Shown one piece after another: positions 9,227 to 31,396 of a stretch of DNA of 36,055 nt (within the stretch, counting starts at the first letter, position 1; every line of letters starts with the position of its first letter). The DNA comes from Spirochaetales bacterium (lineage in GTDB: Bacteria > Spirochaetota > Spirochaetia > JABEVK01). The notes under the pieces were generated by a model. It did not search any database. It worked only from the letters and a program-made list of their open reading frames with translations, and was not told the origin of the DNA. The stretch spans positions 1 to 36,055 of the forward strand of contig JABEVK010000107.1 in NCBI GenBank assembly GCA_013044245.1, given 5' to 3'. The translations under genes were made by a program, and so were the position numbers.

Positions 9227-12200
9227 CTACTCTTCAGTTTTCCGTTTGGTACTTTTCTTTGCCTTTGGCATTGGTGACGGCATCACAGTGGACTCTGCCA
9301 AAGAGTCTGTCAAAAGGGTTTCAAGGAGGAACCCTCCATTTTCTGCCTTAAGTTTCCAATCTTCCATCAACTGATATAGAATTTTAATTGCGTCACCGGC
9401 GACATGAAGATCTTTGTTTTCAGCAAAGGTCTCGGTAACAGCAGAGGCAAAGAACCACCAAAGCACGTAATCGAACCCCTCTTTGCTGAACCACGCCTTT
9501 CCATCAAAGTCATGAACACCCATGGCCTGTCGAACTTCCAACAAAGAAACCAGTTTCGTCAGGACTTCGCCTTCTTTTCGCGACGAAAGATCTAAATCTT
9601 TGGCCCAGCCACGAGTTTCGATAAGAATTTTCAGCCATTGTACGGAGTTGTGCGCGTCGACCCAAGGTACTCCTAAATCAAGAAACAAACGCAGTACTTT
9701 TCGGTCTAGGTACCAACTTTCAAAGATTGCCTTGGAATTTGGTTCCACCCCCGAAGCAGAAGCGACTTCAGAAATTCTCGCTAACACCGCTTTGGCCAGA
9801 AATACATAAATTAGCGTGGAAGGTTCCCTTAAACGAGTATCCAACAACCCAGCGGCTTTTGTTAAGGTTTTTTGATCCTGATATAAACTCGCCACACGAC
9901 CAAGGCTGAAACAGCCGTCGATATCGGCTAAGACCTCATGAATCACGGCAGAAGGATCAATCATAGTACCCATGAAATCTCGCACTCTCCAAAAGAAAAA
10001 CGACAGCTTGGCTTGAATATCGTTTCGAAAGGCCTCGTCAAGCGGTCGTTTAGCCAAGGCAACATCCGCTAAAGCGCGAAAAACAGTGGGCTGAAAGACT
10101 TCATAGAACCCCTGATAAACCGTACGATGCGTCATGTCATGAAGAGCCTCAGAAATATCATAGACACCACTACCGTTCAATTCATCACAAAGTCTTCGAA
10201 TCGGGTATGTCTGCGAATCTTGGACTTCTTGAATATTCCAGAAAACCTGGTGTTGGTAGCCCTTCAATTCGATGTAAAGACCAGAGCTCGTGACCGATGA
10301 ACTGGCTCGAATATACCAAAGCCCAGAGGTTTGTTCTTGCAAAAGAACAAACCAAGAGTCTTCGTGATGAAGATGCAAGGCCTCGCCAATCTCCGTCTGT
10401 TTCATACTCTTTGAGCCATCGGGATTTTTTACCGAGTAGCCGGCCGAAGTTTTGATCCAGCCTACGGCTTTTTCATAAGAGTTGTTATACAAAACAAGGG
10501 CGCGTTCATACTCATTGCCGTTAGAATACGCAAAGACATTTTCATTCACGGTACCCTGAGGTGTCCAAAAGTCATAAAGATAAAAGTTCCTTACTTCCGC
10601 AAATAAGTAGCGTTTGTGCATAAGGGGAAAGATTTCGCGTTCATGGCGTTCGATAAGCCCCTGATCCAGCTTTTCATCCCAATAGGCTCGACGATATTCC
10701 ATGCCGTACTTCTCACGGAAGCCCTCTACCTGCCCATGACCAAACATAGGCGTTCCCGGCATTGTAACCATCATCGTGGCTACACCAAAATACTTATCTC
10801 CCGTCCCAAACTGAACTGCAGCAGTTTCTTCATCCGGATTGTTCATAAAATTCACAAACCGTTTCAGAATGTCGGGGTCAAACTCTAGCGTATTCTTGAT
10901 GGTGTAACGATATTTTTCGTTTTCTTCTTTTTTGAACATGTGCATGAAAGCAGAATTGTAGACGCGATGCATTCCCAGGGTTCGCACGAAATACCCTTCC
11001 ATCATCCAAAATGCTTCGGCAAGCAATAAGGTGTCAGGAACTTCTGCGGCAACTCTATCGACGACTTCCCGCCAAAATTCCACCGGCATAGCTTTGTCAA
11101 AAGCATCGCGGTTCAAACCATGCTCGGCTCTCGTGGCAATGTCACCACCAGAACCAGGTTGAGGAAACCACAACCGTTGAATGTGTTTCTTTGCCAGAGT
11201 CATTGCGGCGTCAAAACGAATAATGGGAAAGTTCCGTGCCACATGGAGAACCACTTGAATAATGGCTTCACGCAACTCAGCATTCAAATAATTCAGCTGA
11301 GCCGTATCGTTCCACGGCATCGAAGTTCCATCATTACCATGGTAGATAAACCGCACTCGTCCACTTCGCTTGTCACGGTGCAAAAAGACGACCGCGGCAT
11401 CCGAGCGTTCATAGTAATGGTCCTCAAGTTTTACCTCGAGAGCCGGGTCTTGGCTAAGGTCGGCTCCGTTAAAGGTGTAATTGGGAAATGGGCATTGGTC
11501 GAGCTGAAGAAACCAATCCGGATGTTCCGAAATCCACCGACTGTCCATGGAGGTGTGATTCGGAACCATGTCGCTGGCAAGACGTATACCTCGTTTTCGG
11601 CATTTCTCACGCAAAACACCTACCGCATCCCAACCACCGAGCTCCCCGGCTATGTCATAATCATATAACGAATACGCAGAGGCTTCCGCTTCAGGGTTTC
11701 CGCACATCTGTTTGATTCGCTTCGAGGCCTTCGAGCGTTCCCATAGACCGATCAACCACAGAGCGTTAAACCCTCTTCGCGCGATCAGATCAATTTCTTC
11801 GTCAGGAATCTGATCCAAGGTGCGAATTTCACGCCCATACTGTTTTGATAGCTGATCTAACCAAACCAGGGTACTCTTAGCCAGCAAAATGACGCGAGGC
11901 ATCCACTCCTTGTCCATACTAAAGCGTTCTGGTTCATCATCCAGACCGCCATAACTGAGCGAGGAATCATAGCCTTCAGATTTTAACCCACCGCCTTTCC
12001 AAAAGAGGCGTTCTTCTTCTTTCATGAAGTCGAGCGACCCCAAAAGCTTCATGAGAAACTTTCCTAAAAGCAGACCCCAACGTTCTCGTATATACTGGAG
12101 CTGACCGTATAGCGAAAAAGGAACAGCAACCGCAGGACTCCTGAGCATATCTACCAAAGTTTGGTGGTCGGGTCCGAATGCTGGAAGCCCTGAAAAGAAG

Positions 12201-12841
12201 GTTTTTAGGGCCTCAAGGAACGCGGCATAGGAGCTCGAGGAGCGCAGATCGCGATCATCAAAAAGTTCTAAATACGGACCAAAGGCAGGGTTCGCATTGG
12301 CGAGCCATAGCATAAGGATCTCTTCGAGAATCATTTCGCGATGACTGACCGAACCTGTCTTTCCCGCCAAAAAATCGCTTTCAGAAAGCTTGCCTTGGTA
12401 AACTTCCACATTGGGAAACAGATGTACAAACCGGGCCAGTACTTCATCCGTGGCGTCACGCCCCAAGGACAAGGTAATGGCATCCAAACACCGCACAAAA
12501 ACGTCCTGCCCCATTTCTTCACGGTAAAGTTCAGCGACGTAGTGAAGAATCTCATCTATGAGTCCCATCGCATTCAGCTGCCCCGGAAGAATGGCCTTTT
12601 CGGGACTGCGCGCCAAGTCTTTTTTGTCATTCATGGACTTAGCAAACACTCGCGTTGCTAAGTAGTTGGGAAACACAACGTTACCGGTCAGGGAAAACAA
12701 ACTCTGATCAAAATTGTACAGCTCACGGGCCTGACGCGATATATGAAACTCCATGGTAACGCTTCGGCCAGGAGACCGTCGAGTCTTACCACCTGCGGTC
12801 AACCTCTTCTCAAGGGTGGTCAAACGGATCGTAAACGGCAT
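9227..12841 (-). CDS. very large GH13 alpha-amylase-family enzyme with N- and C-terminal extensions
   Basis: 1204 residues. A mainly helical N-terminal region (about 1-325) of no recognised family precedes the GH13 barrel (about 330-800) and a helical C-terminal region (about 830-1204). Barrel signatures are region I DMVPNH (D424, N428, H429), region II IRFDAA with nucleophile D544, and region III LLAEAFW with acid/base E609. Region IV reads NNPDEE with D670 retained, but Pro669 stands where most family members have His (NHD). The catalytic triad is therefore intact while a substrate-contact residue differs. The enzyme should act on alpha-glucans in the cytoplasm, since no signal peptide is seen. 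AAGGAGG overlapping the malQ stop precedes the ATG with tight spacing; an in-frame ATG at residue 30 is an alternative start. It is the last gene of the run that starts at purL. The exact specificity is unknown. Confidence 0.88.
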   Translation of the reverse strand: MPFTIRLTTLEKRLTAGGKTRRSPGRSVTMEFHISRQARELYNFDQSLFSLTGNVVFPNYLATRVFAKSMNDKKDLARSPEKAILPGQLNAMGLIDEILHYVAELYREEMGQDVFVRCLDAITLSLGRDATDEVLARFVHLFPNVEVYQGKLSESDFLAGKTGSVSHREMILEEILMLWLANANPAFGPYLELFDDRDLRSSSSYAAFLEALKTFFSGLPAFGPDHQTLVDMLRSPAVAVPFSLYGQLQYIRERWGLLLGKFLMKLLGSLDFMKEEERLFWKGGGLKSEGYDSSLSYGGLDDEPERFSMDKEWMPRVILLAKSTLVWLDQLSKQYGREIRTLDQIPDEEIDLIARRGFNALWLIGLWERSKASKRIKQMCGNPEAEASAYSLYDYDIAGELGGWDAVGVLREKCRKRGIRLASDMVPNHTSMDSRWISEHPDWFLQLDQCPFPNYTFNGADLSQDPALEVKLEDHYYERSDAAVVFLHRDKRSGRVRFIYHGNDGTSMPWNDTAQLNYLNAELREAIIQVVLHVARNFPIIRFDAAMTLAKKHIQRLWFPQPGSGGDIATRAEHGLNRDAFDKAMPVEFWREVVDRVAAEVPDTLLLAEAFWMMEGYFVRTLGMHRVYNSAFMHMFKKEENEKYRYTIKNTLEFDPDILKRFVNFMNNPDEETAAVQFGTGDKYFGVATMMVTMPGTPMFGHGQVEGFREKYGMEYRRAYWDEKLDQGLIERHEREIFPLMHKRYLFAEVRNFYLYDFWTPQGTVNENVFAYSNGNEYERALVLYNNSYEKAVGWIKTSAGYSVKNPDGSKSMKQTEIGEALHLHHEDSWFVLLQEQTSGLWYIRASSSVTSSGLYIELKGYQHQVFWNIQEVQDSQTYPIRRLCDELNGSGVYDISEALHDMTHRTVYQGFYEVFQPTVFRALADVALAKRPLDEAFRNDIQAKLSFFFWRVRDFMGTMIDPSAVIHEVLADIDGCFSLGRVASLYQDQKTLTKAAGLLDTRLREPSTLIYVFLAKAVLARISEVASASGVEPNSKAIFESWYLDRKVLRLFLDLGVPWVDAHNSVQWLKILIETRGWAKDLDLSSRKEGEVLTKLVSLLEVRQAMGVHDFDGKAWFSKEGFDYVLWWFFASAVTETFAENKDLHVAGDAIKILYQLMEDWKLKAENGGFLLETLLTDSLAESTVMPSPMPKAKKSTKRKTEE

Positions 12842-24559: not shown

Positions 24560-26236
24560 TTAAGCCCTACCGGGCCGAAAAGCAACGCGGTGATCGAGTT
24601 CAAACAGTGAGCGAACCAAGGGCAGACGGCGGCCAATGCCAAACGAAACCGGCGACACCTTGAGCACCGGTGGCGCCTGCCACCGCTTATACTCGGCCGA
24701 GGCGGTCAGCTTGAGCACTCGCTCGGCGAGGTCAATGGCTTCACCGTGCTGAACCAGGTCACTCACGCTTTCGTGCCTAACAATATACCCTTGCAAAAGA
24801 CGGTCTAAATCGTCATAAGGCGGCAGACTGTCTTGATCGGTTTGATCGGGCCTCAGCTCTGCCGACGGAGGTTTAGTTAAGGTCGCTGTAGGGATCAGCT
24901 CCCGTTCGGCATTCATCTCGCGGGCCAAGGCATAAACTTCGGTTTTTAACAGGTCGCCAATGGCCCCCAGGCCACCGGCCATATCCCCGTAAAGGGTACA
25001 GTAGCCCACCGAAAGCTCACTTTTGTTGCCGGTCGTCAGCAGCAAGGACGAAAACTTGTTGCTGTAGGCCATTAGGTAGGTTCCCCGAATTCTCGCCTGC
25101 AAGTTTTCTTCGGCTACCCCTGGTGTGGTGCCTTGAAACACTGGGGCCAGGGCCGCTAAGAACGCGTTAAACGGACCCTCGATGGGAATCAGCTGAAACG
25201 AAACCCCCAGGTTACGAGCCAGAGCCTCGGCATCGGCAATGCTCCCGCTCGAAGAGTACCGACTCGGCATACCAAAGCAGGTGCCGTTGTCGGCACCCAG
25301 GGCATCGACCGCCAGCACGGCGACCACAGCCGAATCGATGCCCCCTGAAAGCCCGAGGTGGAGGTGGGTAAACCCGCTTTTTTGAGCGTAATCGCGTATT
25401 CCCAGAGCTAAAGCCTGACGCAATTCCCCCCACGGCGAGACGGTACGCAAGGGTAAAGGTTTGACTGGGGCGGTTGTTTCCCAAACCACCAGGTCCGGAG
25501 CAAACGAAGCCCCTTGAGCTACCAAGCGACCCTGGGCATCGGTAACCAGGCTGTTGCCATCAAAAATGAGGCTATCATTGCCGCCCACCTGATTGACGTA
25601 GGCTACGGGCACCCGAAAATTCTGGGCAATACTCTGCAGAATATCGTGGCGTAAGGGGGCTTTTCCGACATGGTAGGGCGAGGCCGACGGCGACAGGATA
25701 AGATCCACCCCGGCATTTACGAGGTCTTCGACCGGATTTTGGGCATACGGAGTACCTAAATCGCGAGAGACTTCCCACCAAAGGTCCTCGCAAATCGCTA
25801 TACCAAGCTTTAGACCGTCCAACTCAAAAGGAACGCTGTTTTGACCGGGAGCAAAATACCGCCGTTCGTCAAAAACATCGTAGGTGGGTAAAAGCCGTTT
25901 GGCTTGCTGAAAAACGATTTGACCGTTCAACAGAACAAAGGCGACGTTCATCAGAGTCTTTTCACTACCCTGAGGTGCCCCCGCCACGCTCCCCACAACG
26001 GTGGCCAAACCCGAGGGGAGGTTTTGGGCCACGTAGTTCAACGCTTTTTCGGACTGCCTGAGAAAGGCTGGAAACGATAAAAGATCGAGAGGCGGGTAGC
26101 CGCAAAGGGACATTTCCGGAAAGACAAGTAAGCGAACCCCCTGTTGCGCGGCGTTTTGCGCCAACGCCAAAAGCTGGGTTGAGTTACCTGAAAAATCCCC
26201 GACCTTGGGGTTAAACTGGGCTAAGGCAATTTTCAT
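24560..26236 (-). CDS. nadE: glutamine-dependent NAD+ synthetase
   Basis: About 558 residues, the typical length of the two-domain type. The N-terminal nitrilase-like glutaminase has its triad at E41 (FPEMSLCGYPP), K113 (AKRLLP) and C149 (AICEDLW). The C-terminal ATP-binding synthetase carries SGGIDS, a TTGNKSELSVGYCTLYGD segment and a TKPPSAELRPDQTDQDSLPPYD tail, quoted here in part as KPPSAELRP. It amidates deamido-NAD to NAD+ using glutamine ammonia. The ATG at 26236 is preferred over the TTG at 26242 because MKIALAQF is the normal N-terminus. It is divergent from the SDR gene across a 35-base gap that contains a perfect ten-base palindrome. It probably shares a transcript with the downstream phosphatase gene. 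Confidence 0.95.
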   Translation of the reverse strand: MKIALAQFNPKVGDFSGNSTQLLALAQNAAQQGVRLLVFPEMSLCGYPPLDLLSFPAFLRQSEKALNYVAQNLPSGLATVVGSVAGAPQGSEKTLMNVAFVLLNGQIVFQQAKRLLPTYDVFDERRYFAPGQNSVPFELDGLKLGIAICEDLWWEVSRDLGTPYAQNPVEDLVNAGVDLILSPSASPYHVGKAPLRHDILQSIAQNFRVPVAYVNQVGGNDSLIFDGNSLVTDAQGRLVAQGASFAPDLVVWETTAPVKPLPLRTVSPWGELRQALALGIRDYAQKSGFTHLHLGLSGGIDSAVVAVLAVDALGADNGTCFGMPSRYSSSGSIADAEALARNLGVSFQLIPIEGPFNAFLAALAPVFQGTTPGVAEENLQARIRGTYLMAYSNKFSSLLLTTGNKSELSVGYCTLYGDMAGGLGAIGDLLKTEVYALAREMNAERELIPTATLTKPPSAELRPDQTDQDSLPPYDDLDRLLQGYIVRHESVSDLVQHGEAIDLAERVLKLTASAEYKRWQAPPVLKVSPVSFGIGRRLPLVRSLFELDHRVAFRPGRA

Positions 26237-26253
26237 AGACAATTTCCGGGCCT

Positions 26254-26271: not shown

Positions 26272-26946
26272 ATGGAAAAAACAATCTTGGTGACAGGAAA
26301 GGACACCTATCTGGGGAATGAAATTGCCCGGTTTTTCCTGGACCAAGGGTCTCGTGTAGGGGCGTCGGTAACACCCCGGCAACACGAAGCCGCCCTGTCG
26401 CTTGACCAAGATGAGCGTCTTCTCACCATTCCCTGGTACCGAAATTCCGCCGTTTCCGCCAAAAACCTGGTCTGGCAAACGGCCAACAAGCTGGGACCCC
26501 TTAACGAAGTTTGGGTTGTTCTTACCCTCGAAAAAGAGGGCATTTTTTTAGAATCAGCCCCGGCCATTTTAGAAGAGGCCTTGGATACGGGCCTCAAGGG
26601 TCTGACCTTCCTAACCCGTGAACTTCTTAGTCTGCAAGCTAACAATCCTGCCTTACAGATCATTTTCGTTTTATTTGAAGAAGATCGGACTGAGCTACCC
26701 CCGCCTTTGGCCTTGATCTATCAAGGGGCCAAAGGATTTATCACGTCGGTTTTAGCCGCCGCTCGTCGCAAAAACCTCCCCATCTGGGCCTATGAATCCG
26801 CCCTACCTCAGGCTGAAGCGTATACACAGTTCCTGCTGGCACACCCTCGAGGCGAGGCAAAAGTGGCCCCTCCGGGCCGCTGGACAGTCTTTGAAGAAAA
26901 GAAAACTCTTCTCGCCAGCTTATTTCCTAAAAGGAATGACACATGA
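26272..26946 (+). CDS. atypical short-chain dehydrogenase/reductase-like protein
   Basis: 224 residues. The start IL-VTGKDTYLG (8-15) corresponds to the nucleotide-binding TGxxxGxG of the Rossmann fold but lacks the last glycines. A YxxxK pair is present at Y150 and K154 in IYQGAKGF, the place of the catalytic Tyr and Lys. No serine is seen about 13 residues before the tyrosine, so the usual triad is incomplete. The protein may be a diverged reductase or a non-catalytic relative. No ribosome site precedes the ATG, which fits a near-leaderless transcript from the palindromic promoter. It overlaps the next gene by ATGA at 26943-26946, so it is coupled to a membrane transporter. The substrate is unknown. 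Confidence 0.65.
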   Translation: MEKTILVTGKDTYLGNEIARFFLDQGSRVGASVTPRQHEAALSLDQDERLLTIPWYRNSAVSAKNLVWQTANKLGPLNEVWVVLTLEKEGIFLESAPAILEEALDTGLKGLTFLTRELLSLQANNPALQIIFVLFEEDRTELPPPLALIYQGAKGFITSVLAAARRKNLPIWAYESALPQAEAYTQFLLAHPRGEAKVAPPGRWTVFEEKKTLLASLFPKRNDT

Positions 26947-28175
26947 AAGTTTGGGTCAAGTTGCTAATTAGTTCGGCCGTGGGCCTTCTTCTCGGTATTT
27001 TCCTACCTTTTTTTGGCAAGGAGGTACCGGCTGTTCTTATTCAGGTCGGGGATTTTATCCTCAGTCTGGGCCGTTACGCCCTCTTCCCCTTGATTTTCTT
27101 TTCGACTGCCATGGCCGTCGATGAACTGCGCCGCGAAAAGCGCCTGTGGCGCCTGGTAGTCCGCAGTGTCATTTACATGATGATTATTTCTTTGGCGCTC
27201 GTCCTGTTGGGCGCCCTCCTGATTCTGCTCTTTAACCCCGAAGCCATCCCCTTAGCCTCGCGCCACGAGTCAGCCCTCATTTTTAAAAGCTGGAATGAAA
27301 CTCTGATCAAGTTGGTACCCAAGAACGCCTTCGAGATTCTTACCGGAGGCTCGGACTTCTTGTTGCCCATTTATGCGCTGTCGTTCTTTTTAGGCCTGCA
27401 CTTTCACTTTGACCGTACCATCACCCAACCGACCGTTAGCCTGTTTAATTCGTTATCCCGCATTTTCTACCACATGAACACCTTCTTGGTAGAAATTCTT
27501 AGCTGGGGCATTCTGATTTTGTCGGCCGCCTGGCTGACTCAACTTCGTCTGGTGCAAAACATTCAGCTGTATACTCAGGTTTTCGTCGTCCTGACCTTGG
27601 CGACCGCCGTGACCATTTTGGGGATCATCCCGCTCATTCTGTACTTCTTTGGTGGCAAGATTAACCCTTACAAGTGGATTTTTGCCATGCTGAGTGCGGG
27701 TATAGCCGGATTCTTTTCAGGGGACAGCTTTTTTTCGCTCAGCTTTGTGACCCGTATGACCCATGAGAACTTGGGGGTACCCCGCAAGGCTGGTGGCATG
27801 AACCTGCCGCTTTTTGCCATGTTTGGCCGGGCAGGTACCGCGATGACTTCGACCATCGCATTCTTTGTCATTTTGAAGTCGTACACCACCTACGAAATTA
27901 CCATTGATCAGATCGTTTGGACGGTTGCCTTTGCCTTTTTGCTGTCGTTTGCCCTGCCCTCGGTGCCCAGCCTGGGAGCGTATATCAACCTTTCGTTGCT
28001 GTGTTCGTCGTACGGCAAAGCGCTCGACACCGGGTATATCAACCTTCAACCCATTCTACCAGTGCTGGTCAGCTTCGCGGCCCTTGTGGATGTTTATACC
28101 GCCGGCTTAACCTCGTTCTTGGTGGCCAAACACGAAGGCATGGTGAGAGACGTCTCACCCACAGCCTACCAGTAG
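26943..28175 (+). CDS. diverged member of the dicarboxylate/amino-acid:cation symporter family
   Basis: 410 residues, the normal length of the GltP/DctA (DAACS) family, with about eight transmembrane segments and two re-entrant regions. The overall pattern is clear: GDFILSLGRYALFPLIF, an LPLFAM stretch and a closing FLVAKHEG. Several binding positions differ from my recollection of the archaeal homologue GltPh. The sodium-binding NMDGT motif reads GRAGT. The serine-rich hairpin RSSSGTLP is SGDSFFSL. In the last helix the Asp and Arg that hold the substrate appear as Val and Ala. It may therefore carry another solute or use other ions. It is translationally coupled to the SDR-like gene. The gap to the next gene end at 28237 shows no terminator. 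Confidence 0.82.
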   Translation: MKVWVKLLISSAVGLLLGIFLPFFGKEVPAVLIQVGDFILSLGRYALFPLIFFSTAMAVDELRREKRLWRLVVRSVIYMMIISLALVLLGALLILLFNPEAIPLASRHESALIFKSWNETLIKLVPKNAFEILTGGSDFLLPIYALSFFLGLHFHFDRTITQPTVSLFNSLSRIFYHMNTFLVEILSWGILILSAAWLTQLRLVQNIQLYTQVFVVLTLATAVTILGIIPLILYFFGGKINPYKWIFAMLSAGIAGFFSGDSFFSLSFVTRMTHENLGVPRKAGGMNLPLFAMFGRAGTAMTSTIAFFVILKSYTTYEITIDQIVWTVAFAFLLSFALPSVPSLGAYINLSLLCSSYGKALDTGYINLQPILPVLVSFAALVDVYTAGLTSFLVAKHEGMVRDVSPTAYQ

Positions 28176-28236: not shown

Positions 28237-28872
28237 TCAAAACGTAAAGCGCACCCCAACCGAGGCACCGATGGTCAGTTCATCGTCCCAGGGCAGTTGG
28301 TCCCACAGGTTAAAGAGGGGGTAAAACACCTGCCCCCTGAGCATCAGCGCCAACAGTGGCGAAAACTGCCAGCTGAGCCCGCCTCCCAGGTTGGGGTACA
28401 AAAACCGCCCCCCGGCAAACCAGGCTGTAATCGGTCCGGCCATGCTCCCCGCGGTGGTACCATTCAAAAAAACGGGTAAACGGAACAAAAGGCCAATGCC
28501 GCCTTCCGCATAGGTCCGCAAATACGGCGACAAACGCCATTCCGCCCCAAAAGTAGGGTTCAACAAAAGGCCCATCATCGAGACGGAGTCAAACATCGAC
28601 TCAACGGGGATCGCTCGCCCATTCTGATACCCATACGTCTGAAAAAACATCTGAGCTTCGGGACGAAAGATCCAAAAGTTTTGAATGCGGAAGGGAACCG
28701 ACACCTCAAAGGTGTTGCAGATTGGGTCGGGAGCACTGTTTTCCACGGTGTTACGAATCCACAAGAGTCCTGTGCCGACTTCAAGACCGTTGATCTCGGC
28801 ACCCCATAGCGACAGCGCCATGGCACCCTGCGCCAAAACCAACATCATCGCCAACACGAAAAGTCGTCTCAT
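28237..28872 (-). CDS. outer-membrane beta-barrel-like protein
   Basis: 211 residues from the ATG at 28872, which gives a clean signal peptide (MRRLFVLAMMLVLAQGAMA, cleavage near residue 19). The GTG at 28890 would add six residues before it. The mature protein alternates polar and hydrophobic residues in strand-like stretches rich in Gly, Trp, Phe and Tyr. It ends in GVRFTF, the terminal Phe being a typical BAM recognition signal of outer-membrane proteins. It probably forms a small eight-to-ten-strand barrel. It lies 43 bases downstream of the lipoprotein gene in the same direction. I recognise no specific family; the function could be structural or a porin-like channel. Confidence 0.7.
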   Translation of the reverse strand: MRRLFVLAMMLVLAQGAMALSLWGAEINGLEVGTGLLWIRNTVENSAPDPICNTFEVSVPFRIQNFWIFRPEAQMFFQTYGYQNGRAIPVESMFDSVSMMGLLLNPTFGAEWRLSPYLRTYAEGGIGLLFRLPVFLNGTTAGSMAGPITAWFAGGRFLYPNLGGGLSWQFSPLLALMLRGQVFYPLFNLWDQLPWDDELTIGASVGVRFTF

Positions 28873-28915
28873 GATACCTGAATATACCACATTCCCGGTC
28901 GCTCAGCGGGCGTTG

Positions 28916-29956
28916 TTAGTAAAGAAACCGTGAAAGGGGGAGGTAGAGGATTCCCGCCGGCCCGGTATACGAGCGGTAAAAGGTGTCCCAAGACAAAACT
29001 ACCCCATGTTTTAACGCGACGGCTCCCGTATAGCGGCCCGCCACACCAAGGGGATACAAGTGAAACAGCTTGAGCCCCGACCGGGGGCTGTCGAAGGCCA
29101 CCACGCCGTCTTCGGTCACGGCGAGGCGTGAGCCATCGGGCCAAGCCGTCGCCGAGACCACCCCAGGCTTACTGGGCGCCCCCGGTGCGGGGCTCCACTG
29201 GTAGGTTTGCGTCACCTGACCCAACAAGCGAATATGCGCTGTCGAACCTAAAGACGGATTCCGCTGGGCCAGTTGCACCCATAAAGGATGCCACGATTCT
29301 GGCAACGGTGGCACGGCGGCCGGTGCGGGCCAGCCTGAGGTGACGCCCGATTCTTGACCGTTTTGCAAGGTCAACGCACTTTGAGTCCATGACCAATGGT
29401 TTTGCTGCCATTCCTTCCACACAAAGTGTAGCACTCCCTGCGAGGCATCCCACACTGCCGTTACAGCTTGAGCTTCGGGGTGGGAGACTTGATAGGGCAC
29501 CGGGTAAAACACCAGTTGTGAACGCGAATCTAACCAGGCCAAGGTGATGGGAAGTCCTGCTTTCACAAAGGCATGCGGTTCTTGATAAAGTGTCACAAAG
29601 ACCCGTGAATCAAAGGGGAACACCAGACCCGTTCTCAGGTGGCGGAGGTTTCGTCGTGAGGAGGCCTCTTCGACTCGCGGGACACCGTCGGGGTCACTAA
29701 CTGTGACCAACCCTGCCCCCGAGGCCGCCGCATAGGCGGTTTCGCCGTCTGAGTACAAATCGGTGACCCGAAGAGCGGTTTCATAAGGTTGCCAATGACC
29801 ATCCCAGGGAGCTTGCGGCGAAAAGACTTTTTGAAGCTGATGGGCACCAAAACGGTACCATGACGCCTGCGACGAAGCAAACCGGGCATTGATCTGCTCG
29901 GCGTCCGAACATCCAAAGAGGATCAGTGCTGTGACAAGCGCCATCACCCCGCGCAT
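28916..29956 (-). CDS. putative lipoprotein of unknown function
   Basis: 346 residues. A very short signal (MRGVMALVTALILFGC) ends in a relaxed lipobox with Cys16, of the loose kind common in spirochaetes. The rest is rich in Trp, Pro, Ser and Thr, and repeated strand-turn patterns (SDGETAYAAASGAGL, PDGSRLAVTEDGVV, KHGVVLSWDTF) resemble blades of a beta-propeller. It is therefore a likely periplasmic or surface binding protein. No enzymatic motif is visible. The ATG lies three bases after the proS stop without its own ribosome site, so translation may be coupled. It is followed by the outer-membrane barrel gene, and the two may work together in the envelope. An internal ATG at 29944 would shorten the signal too far. 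Confidence 0.7.
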   Translation of the reverse strand: MRGVMALVTALILFGCSDAEQINARFASSQASWYRFGAHQLQKVFSPQAPWDGHWQPYETALRVTDLYSDGETAYAAASGAGLVTVSDPDGVPRVEEASSRRNLRHLRTGLVFPFDSRVFVTLYQEPHAFVKAGLPITLAWLDSRSQLVFYPVPYQVSHPEAQAVTAVWDASQGVLHFVWKEWQQNHWSWTQSALTLQNGQESGVTSGWPAPAAVPPLPESWHPLWVQLAQRNPSLGSTAHIRLLGQVTQTYQWSPAPGAPSKPGVVSATAWPDGSRLAVTEDGVVAFDSPRSGLKLFHLYPLGVAGRYTGAVALKHGVVLSWDTFYRSYTGPAGILYLPLSRFLY

Positions 29957-29959
29957 ACA

Positions 29960-31396
29960 TTAATACGATTTAGCCCAAATCGCCCAATGACGGCCTTCTT
30001 GTCCGCAGTACAAGCACCCACCCTCCACGGGGAGGCCTTTGAATGCGTTCGGAAGGTTACGAATCGTCGCCTTGGTATCTTCTTTAACATGGGCTTCGCA
30101 ATCGCGACTGCCACACCAGGGCGCTTGCACAAAGCCACCCTCACCTTCCATTAACTGACAAAACTCGCTGTACGAGCCCACCCGCAGGGTATTTTTGGTT
30201 CGGTAGTCCAGCGCCCGTTGGAACAGCTGGGTTTGAATCTCTTGCAAGAGCTCACGAATTTTAACCGTAACAGCACCTCGCTCCACAAAGAGTTTTTCTC
30301 CTGTGTCGCGTCGCACCAAGACCACTTGGTTTTTTTCAATATCCTTGGGACCCACCTCAACGCGGACAGGCACCCCTACCATCTCCCATTCGGCAAACTT
30401 CCAGCCCGGCGAGGAACTGTCATCTAAGTCGAGTTCAACGCGCAACCCCGCTTGGCGCAAGTCGGCTCCCAGTTGGCGGGCATAGGTCAAAACCCCTTCG
30501 ACGTTGTCTTTGCGAAAGACGGGGATCACCACGGCCTCGGTGGGGGCCAAACGTGGAGGAATCACCAGGCCTTTGTCATCCGAGTGGGCCATGATCAGGG
30601 CCCCAATCAGGCGAGTCGAAACCCCCCAGCTGGTCGCCCAAACATGCTCAAGTCCACCCTCTTTGGTTTGAAAGGTGACATCGAACGCTTTGGCGAAGTT
30701 CTGCCCTAAAAAGTGGCTGGTCCCCGCTTGAAGGGCCTTCTTGTCTTGCATCATCGCTTCGATCGAATAGGTCTTAACAGCCCCAGCAAACTTCTCACTT
30801 TCAGACTTTTCACCTTCGTAGACAGGAAGCGCCATCCATTCTTCAGCAAAACGTTTGTAAACCGCCAACATTTTTTGGGTTTCTTCTTGAGCTTCTTCGG
30901 CGGTGGCGTGAGCGGTATGCCCCTCTTGCCACAAAAACTCGGTGGTGCGCAAAAAGAGCCTGGTTCGTTTTTCCCAGCGCACCACATTGGCCCACTGATT
31001 GATCAACAGAGGTAAGTCTCGGTAGCTTTGAATCCATTTTTGATACATCGACCAGATGATGGTCTCGGAGGTTGGACGAACCACCAGAGGTTCTTCGAGC
31101 TTCTCGCCACCGGCGTAGGTCACAACGGCCAATTCTGGTGAAAAACCCTCAACATGTTCCGCTTCTTTTTTCAGAAAGCTTTCAGGAATAAGCATGGGAA
31201 AGTAGGCGTTAACATGCCCGGTTTCTTTAAATAACCCATCCAGCACTTTCTGGATCGCTTCCCACAGTGCATACCCCCGGGGACGAATAACCATACAGCC
31301 TTTGACGGGCGAATAATCCGCCAATTTTGCTTGAGTGACAATATCGATATACCACTGGGAATAATCCGTGGAACGGGGGGTAATTTTATCGGCCAT
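29960..31396 (-). CDS. proS: prolyl-tRNA synthetase, archaeal/eukaryotic type
   Basis: 478 residues, the short form without the editing insertion of typical bacterial ProRS. Class II motifs are visible: [16 protein letters not shown] (motif 1 region), [14 protein letters not shown] (motif 2) and [28 protein letters not shown], in part [12 protein letters not shown] (motif 3). A C-terminal region with Cys pairs ([12 protein letters not shown] and CLYCGQ) fits the zinc-binding domain of this type, and the protein ends in Tyr as these forms do. It charges tRNA-Pro in the cytoplasm. This form occurs in scattered bacteria including spirochaetes and Bacteroidetes. It is first in a minus-strand group with a lipoprotein and a barrel protein; a hairpin sits between it and the DUF2259 gene. 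Confidence 0.95.

Follow-up and report, generated by a model that had tools for sequence, protein, structure and literature searches.

Two overlapping genes in a spirochete genome

The DNA analyzed here (the window) is a 36,055-nucleotide contig of a Spirochaetales bacterium, JABEVK010000107.1. Two overlapping genes lie on its forward strand: an SDR-like gene of 224 amino acids (26272..26946) and, directly downstream, a gene of 410 amino acids for an SDF/SLC1-fold transporter (26943..28175). The stop codon of the first overlaps the start codon of the second by 4 bases (ATGA, 26943 to 26946). From its translation, we take the product of 24560 to 26242 to be NAD synthase, and 29960 to 31396 presumably encodes proline-tRNA ligase, a name also read off the translation. 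Directly downstream of the transporter, on the opposite strand, are two adjoining open reading frames (ORFs) of 217 and 346 amino acids (28237 to 29956), for which a search of Pfam at 1e-4 gave no match. Elsewhere in the window, the minus-strand gene at 9227 to 12841 adjoins one for a 4-alpha-glucanotransferase and encodes a protein of 1,204 amino acids; it has a weak alpha-amylase match (45 bits) over residues 349 to 710 and no Pfam match at 1e-4 outside them.

Pfam, a predicted structure and structure alignments all place the transporter in the SDF/SLC1 superfamily. PF00375 (SDF) matches residues 4 to 396 with 130.2 bits, above the curated cutoff of 27.9. Against the five NCBIfam models listed, the protein stays under every cutoff, the best being SstT with 42.7 bits versus 308, and in PHROGs it matches one family of unknown function with 37.9 bits. 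It is the sole PF00375 match in its own genome, where GltS (PF03616) has no match. We modeled the transporter with AlphaFold2 from 33 sequences. The mean pLDDT is 84, with block values of 81 to 94 at the HP1 tip, the TM7 loop, the HP2 tip and around D383. Foldseek gave a TMq of 0.80 to the best match. Among the matches listed, VIA-align gave Z scores of 38 to 45 over 359 to 393 residues against SLC1-family structures; these include an L-Asp-bound ancestral transporter (Z 44.7, rmsd 3.0, 378 residues aligned) and GltPh 2nwl (Z 40.8). Helices of the model are broken at 260-261 (HP1 tip), 295-296 (TM7 loop) and 335-344 (HP2 tip). These breaks, at D261, G295-R296 and 335-344, coincide with the parts from which the SLC1 site is built, and they support a GltPh-type fold with HP1, HP2 and a broken TM7. 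The initial annotation of this locus had called a symporter fold, correctly, and had placed all the changes in the transport site of a preserved scaffold. The site replacements are real, but the claim for the scaffold was overstated, since the whole protein is only about 16 to 24% identical to canonical SDF members.

The SDR-like protein was assigned from PF00106, a structure profile search and its conserved neighbor. PF00106 matches the window copy with 26.6 bits at a cutoff of 26.6, and it matches 8 of the 21 rows from which we built a family profile (A4). Searched against the PDB, A4 matched many SDR structures, the best at 3.8e-08, and the window copy has a glycine-rich start, TGKDTYLG. 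Unlike typical SDRs, the family has mostly lost the catalytic Tyr-x3-Lys; Y150 and K154 are present in the window copy, but the motif is complete in only 4/21 rows and is thus not a family feature. W55, S59, D105 and E117 are conserved instead. A single-sequence fold of this protein reached a pLDDT of 42 and was set aside. The SDR-like protein may thus be an SDR that is altered or has ceased to be an enzyme and that acts together with the transporter.

Ligand side chains are lost and new charges appear in the transport site

We mapped the site by aligning the protein to GltPh and four E. coli members; below, positions are those of GltPh and residues those of the window protein. The NMD loop of TM7 has been described as the nexus for Na1 to Na3 and the substrate (PMC12668577). 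Here, NMDGT (310 to 314) is replaced by G295-R296-A297-G298-T299 (27825..27839), with N310 changed to G295, M311 to R296 and D312 to A297. At the HP1 tip (G260 to F264, 27720..27734), GDSFF replaces the canonical serine stretch RSSSG. For HP1, the register may be off by one residue, as MAFFT aligns D261 with S277 and hhalign places it one position earlier. The HP2 tip, S335 to G345 (27945..27977), reads SFALPSVPSLG. In TM8 (28068..28103), D394 is V376, R397 is A379, N401 is D383 and D405 is A387. The TM8 register, with D383 at N401, is agreed by hhalign, MAFFT and VIA-align, whose rows for GltPh either end at model residue 398 and GltPh residue 416 or keep the same offset of 18. In TM3, Y89 is M79 and T92 is I82, while S93 is retained as S83. 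Thus, alignment to GltPh-type structures did not restore the canonical residues. GRAGT for NMDGT, the altered serine hairpin and the loss of D394 and R397 to Val and Ala had been noted initially from the sequence, and all of them were borne out against GltPh and the E. coli members. What that reading missed was the gain of charge at D261, R296 and D383, and its conservation.

The affected residues have known roles. N401 binds the main-chain carboxylate of the substrate, and R397 and D394 set specificity (PMC12668577). The residues replaced here include side-chain ligands of Na1 and Na3 in GltTk and GltPh (PMC8431971; PMC12668577). Na2 is bound mostly by backbone, and its loss is therefore not readable from sequence. 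Met314 of GltTk stands between Na2 and the substrate, and it is not needed for Na2 occupancy (PMC8431971). In sum, the window protein has the fold, the hairpins and the TM7 break in common with the Na+-coupled aspartate transporters GltPh and GltTk, whereas it has other residues in place of the side chains that bind Na1, Na3 (S93 excepted) and the substrate, and so lacks both NMDGT plus D405 and the D394, R397, N401 set of the Na+-coupled (ExtNa, GltPh-like) type. The protein does not carry the signature of H+-coupled relatives (ExtH, E. coli GltP-like) either. This signature consists of an aliphatic residue at T92, M311L and D405N (PMC12668577); I82 fits, but position 311 is Arg and position 405 is Ala.

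E. coli GltP and DctA (both H+-coupled), SstT and TcyP belong to the same Pfam family as the window protein. NMDGT varies in canonical members too, being NMAGA in SstT and GQNGC in TcyP. These four E. coli proteins have N401 in 4/4, R397 in 3/4 and D394 in 3/4, and none has Arg or Lys at 311.

The new charges are conserved across the class

We built a profile (A1) from 42 relatives of the transporter and searched 218 sampled genomes of the class, which its named relatives suggest is Spirochaetia, at an E value of 1e-10 or lower. There were matches in 208 of the 218 genomes, and in 147 of the 150 of good quality. The weakest of the 208 are near 1e-15, with their residues checked in part, and the best 150 of the 208 genomes score at least 214 bits. 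The matches gave 139 distinct sequences: 109 core rows (at least 240 bits, including the window), 12 mid rows (120 to 240 bits) and 18 lower rows that were excluded. Because L042 is unreadable at 311 and 401, lying on a cut contig, 120 rows (108 core and 12 mid) could be read at these positions.

Position 311 (R296) is Arg or Lys in 120/120 sequences (96 Arg and 12 Lys in the core, 5 Arg and 7 Lys in the mid rows), and position 401 (D383) is Asp in all 108 readable core and all 12 mid rows, counts that are favored by the collecting profile, which itself contains these residues. Four weaker rows of the class have Asp at 401 in 4/4 and, at 311, Arg in three and His in one. D394, R397, N310, D312 and D405 are each kept in 0/120 distinct readable sequences; a Glu stands at the D394 position in 2/108 core rows. 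In TM2, R44-Y45 (27072..27077, the region of GltPh K55) is conserved as Arg in 97/109 and Tyr in 100/109 core rows, and W4, K6, R281 and S313 are among other near-invariant residues of the subfamily. An open frame, the matches in nearly all of the genomes and the invariant new residues exclude decay into a pseudogene. Rather, this conservation argues that the site has been re-specified and not lost. The initial annotation had also proposed a different coupling; loss of D405 (Na1) and of N310 and D312 (Na3) from every readable sequence makes this probable.

Two other features were considered and rejected as hallmarks. The HP1-tip Asp (D261) is not essential, since it is found in 98/109 core and 4/12 mid rows; L026 has an X here, which leaves 108 readable core rows. 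It is Asn in L087, which appears to be the Treponema pallidum member (genome G062, position 1.017 Mb). Position 311 is still Arg and position 401 still Asp in L087, and the SDR-like match in its genome is unlinked. Nor does HP2 supply a motif that is new and conserved, since ARHPGDGA, although typical of many rows from termite-gut Treponema, is not class-wide, and position 340 is Arg in 59/109 core rows.

A scan of genome contigs with the window protein, which needs exact peptide words, found 43 loci, all from Treponema, Spirochaetia, Spirochaetaceae or Brevinematales. In one class genome (G229), a canonical copy, L129, is present as well.

The SDR-like gene often accompanies the transporter

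Using A4 at 1e-6, we found an SDR-like match in 144 of the 218 class genomes and none in 74. For gene order, the matches listed cover 150 genomes with the transporter and 141 with the SDR-like gene; 136 have both, and five in which only the SDR-like gene is listed were dropped. Among these listed matches, 93 of the 136 genomes, from 24 families, have the SDR-like gene immediately upstream of the transporter and in the same orientation, and the median gap between the match ends of such pairs is 52 bases. The two genes are head to head in 8/136, all in one family (f3), and are not adjacent in 35/136, where 25 pairs lie on different contigs and 10 on the same contig. Some of the weaker non-adjacent matches may be other SDRs. 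The initial suggestion of a link between the transporter and its coupled SDR-like neighbor is therefore sound: the gene order is conserved well beyond this genome.

The clade includes an apparent orthologue of BB0401 of Borrelia burgdorferi

One distant member of this group has been studied. BB0401 of Borrelia burgdorferi, the proposed GltPBb, is reported to take up Asp in preference to Glu, and its depletion lowers Asp/Glu uptake, a modest effect of 1.1- to 2.5-fold in depleted cells (PMC12830385). It is also reported as required for viability, and its binding residues are described as missing, with "minimal binding site conservation," in an early-branching spirochete group (PMC12830385). The oddity of the missing canonical residues is thus partly in print already, for one distant member. 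The accessible portions of that report contain no mention of an invariant basic/acidic pair or of an SDR partner.

Four of our sequences (L091 and L133 to L135) appear to be BB0401 orthologues, and their family (f5) would then be Borrelia. In L134, D256, I336, D377 and N381 fall at exactly the BB0401 numbers given in PMC12830385. We placed these sequences with a quick IQ-TREE run on 91 rows, leaving out columns 311 and 401. The class clade, which includes the apparent BB0401 orthologue, is split from canonical and sister rows with an SH-aLRT of 100; inner branches are weaker. The apparent orthologue sits on a long branch and is 26.6% identical to the window transporter. Both proteins have lost the canonical residues, and both have a basic residue at 311, Asp at 401 (D377 in BB0401) and an HP1 Asp (D256). 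They differ in that BB0401 has Lys instead of Arg at 311 and Asn (N381) instead of Ala at D405.

The tree allowed us to ask how 311 and 401 change. There are three supported independent contrasts, of which two are concordant, one is unchanged and none is opposite. The unchanged contrast is L122, with Lys at 311, Asn at 401 and D312 kept. This pattern suggests that the charges at the two positions change together; it is not significant. A separate Spirochaetota subfamily outside the class has Arg or Lys at 311 with Asp at 401 in 5/8 rows and Gln with Asn in 3/8. The pair is absent from remoter rows outside the class, which have Val or Leu at 311 with Asn at 401, or Ile with Thr.

A possible built-in cation

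Fold, residue identities, conservation and clade are established, and on this basis we considered how such a site may work. We would give about even chances to an elevator-type SDF/SLC1 transporter of the BB0401 clade that most likely imports Asp over Glu without sodium. Judging from its position at the boundary of Na2 and substrate, Arg296 would be a cation permanently built into the protein; it would pair with D383 and take the place of sodium. It may also substitute for the carboxylate-binding Arg397. Binding of the amino group or transfer of a proton would fall to D383, D261 or both, and the cycle would then be H+-coupled or an exchange. For D261, a proton-carrying role is conceivable because an HP1 Glu (S279E) has been proposed as the protonation site of H+-coupled relatives (PMC12668577). 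An R296-D383 contact, independence from sodium, the direction of coupling and the substrate of the Arg-bearing members are all putative. The mostly catalytically worn SDR-like protein upstream could be a functional partner, such as a regulator, a chaperone or a metabolite sensor, a role that we infer from gene linkage alone.

A built-in cation has precedents, and these support the sodium-free transporter proposed here. In LaINDY, Arg159-Glu146 has been proposed as a stand-in for sodium (PMC7553777), and so has Arg262 in CaiT (as cited in PMC6472337). In LaINDY-type DASS exchangers and in CaiT, a fixed basic side chain occupies a sodium site, and in LaINDY it is salt-bridged to an acid. These proteins belong to other families, and the cation was seen there in structures, whereas here it is proposed from position. 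Among the papers listed in searches of the SLC1/GltPh literature, we recognized none that describes such a surrogate apart from one on the unrelated DASS family. Support for an acidic substrate comes from the drop in Asp/Glu uptake upon depletion of BB0401, which, however, carries Lys at the position of R296. In a more ambitious version, a side chain would have replaced sodium, with Arg/Lys fixed to the Asp that stands for N401, elsewhere one of the best-conserved positions of the SLC1 family; the result would be a sodium-free elevator for acidic amino acids that is nearly universal in the class and has a dead SDR partner encoded upstream. We put this forward only tentatively, as a joint reading that may well fail in some part.

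The substrate may be something other than an acidic amino acid. Dicarboxylates, keto acids and neutral or basic amino acids would all be candidates, and BB0401 would then have switched on its own long branch. The loss of both specificity setters, R397 and D394, from 120/120 sequences points in this direction, as does the variation of HP2 tips between subgroups. Yet for BB0401, with the same losses and gains, transport of Asp and Glu has been reported (PMC12830385), and a basic residue is still present at a pocket position. We regard a non-acidic substrate as possible but doubtful; the new substrate proposed in the initial annotation finds no support in BB0401, the one relative with transport data, though the apparent orthologue of BB0401 is only 26.6% identical to the window protein. 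It seems less probable still that the protein resembles E. coli GltP in coupling glutamate transport to H+, with D261 (compare S279E) as the proton carrier and R296 only structural. All three signature positions (92, 311 and 405) are changed here, and an acid has been gained in HP1, where the putative protonation site lies (PMC12668577). Against this, E. coli GltP and DctA keep N310, D312, R397 and N401, all of which are replaced here; position 92 is still Ser or Thr in 59/109 core rows; and the HP1 Asp is missing in 10/108 readable core and 8/12 mid rows.

Two further explanations seem very improbable. If the SLC1 scaffold had become a non-transporting sensor or receptor acting with the SDR-like partner, then replacement of the canonical site and conserved pairing with a soluble protein would both be expected, but depletion of BB0401, from the same clade, lowers amino-acid uptake, BB0401 is reported as required for viability (PMC12830385), and the invariant charges suggest a site that was re-specified rather than eroded. 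The non-transport role floated in the initial annotation thus found no support. We would likewise be surprised if the site were an artifact of misalignment, with D383 truly at D394 and the canonical site partly intact. A pairwise phmmer alignment to 6wyj does end with D383 opposite D394. It is outvoted by hhalign, by MAFFT with more than 100 rows and by the end points of VIA-align; the BB0401 numbering, in which N381 corresponds to D405 (PMC12830385), also fits D383 at N401, and none of these alignments offers another register for the TM7 changes. Overall, the initial observation was confirmed, and its interpretation was supported in part.

For sodium-coupled elevator transport, the SLC1 fold serves as the textbook example. 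This clade discards the side chains thought to define substrate binding and Na1, yet uptake of Asp and Glu has been reported for one of its members; it tests which parts of the mechanism are needed, singling out three individual residues, R296, D383 and D261. As BB0401 is reported to be required for viability, the clade is also relevant to the physiology of spirochetes, those of Lyme disease included. For the SDR-like partner, a conserved gene, there is now a context.

Additional SDF relatives

Some relatives outside the clade also depart from the canonical site. L120, L180 and L192 read NIDG in TM7, and a Thr stands in for N401. The separate Spirochaetota subfamily outside the class, L169 to L176, is a divergent SDF subfamily in which most rows have FSFRLDG in HP2 and N(R/K/Q)TGT in TM7, and the charge state of TM7 matches the Asp/Asn state in TM8.
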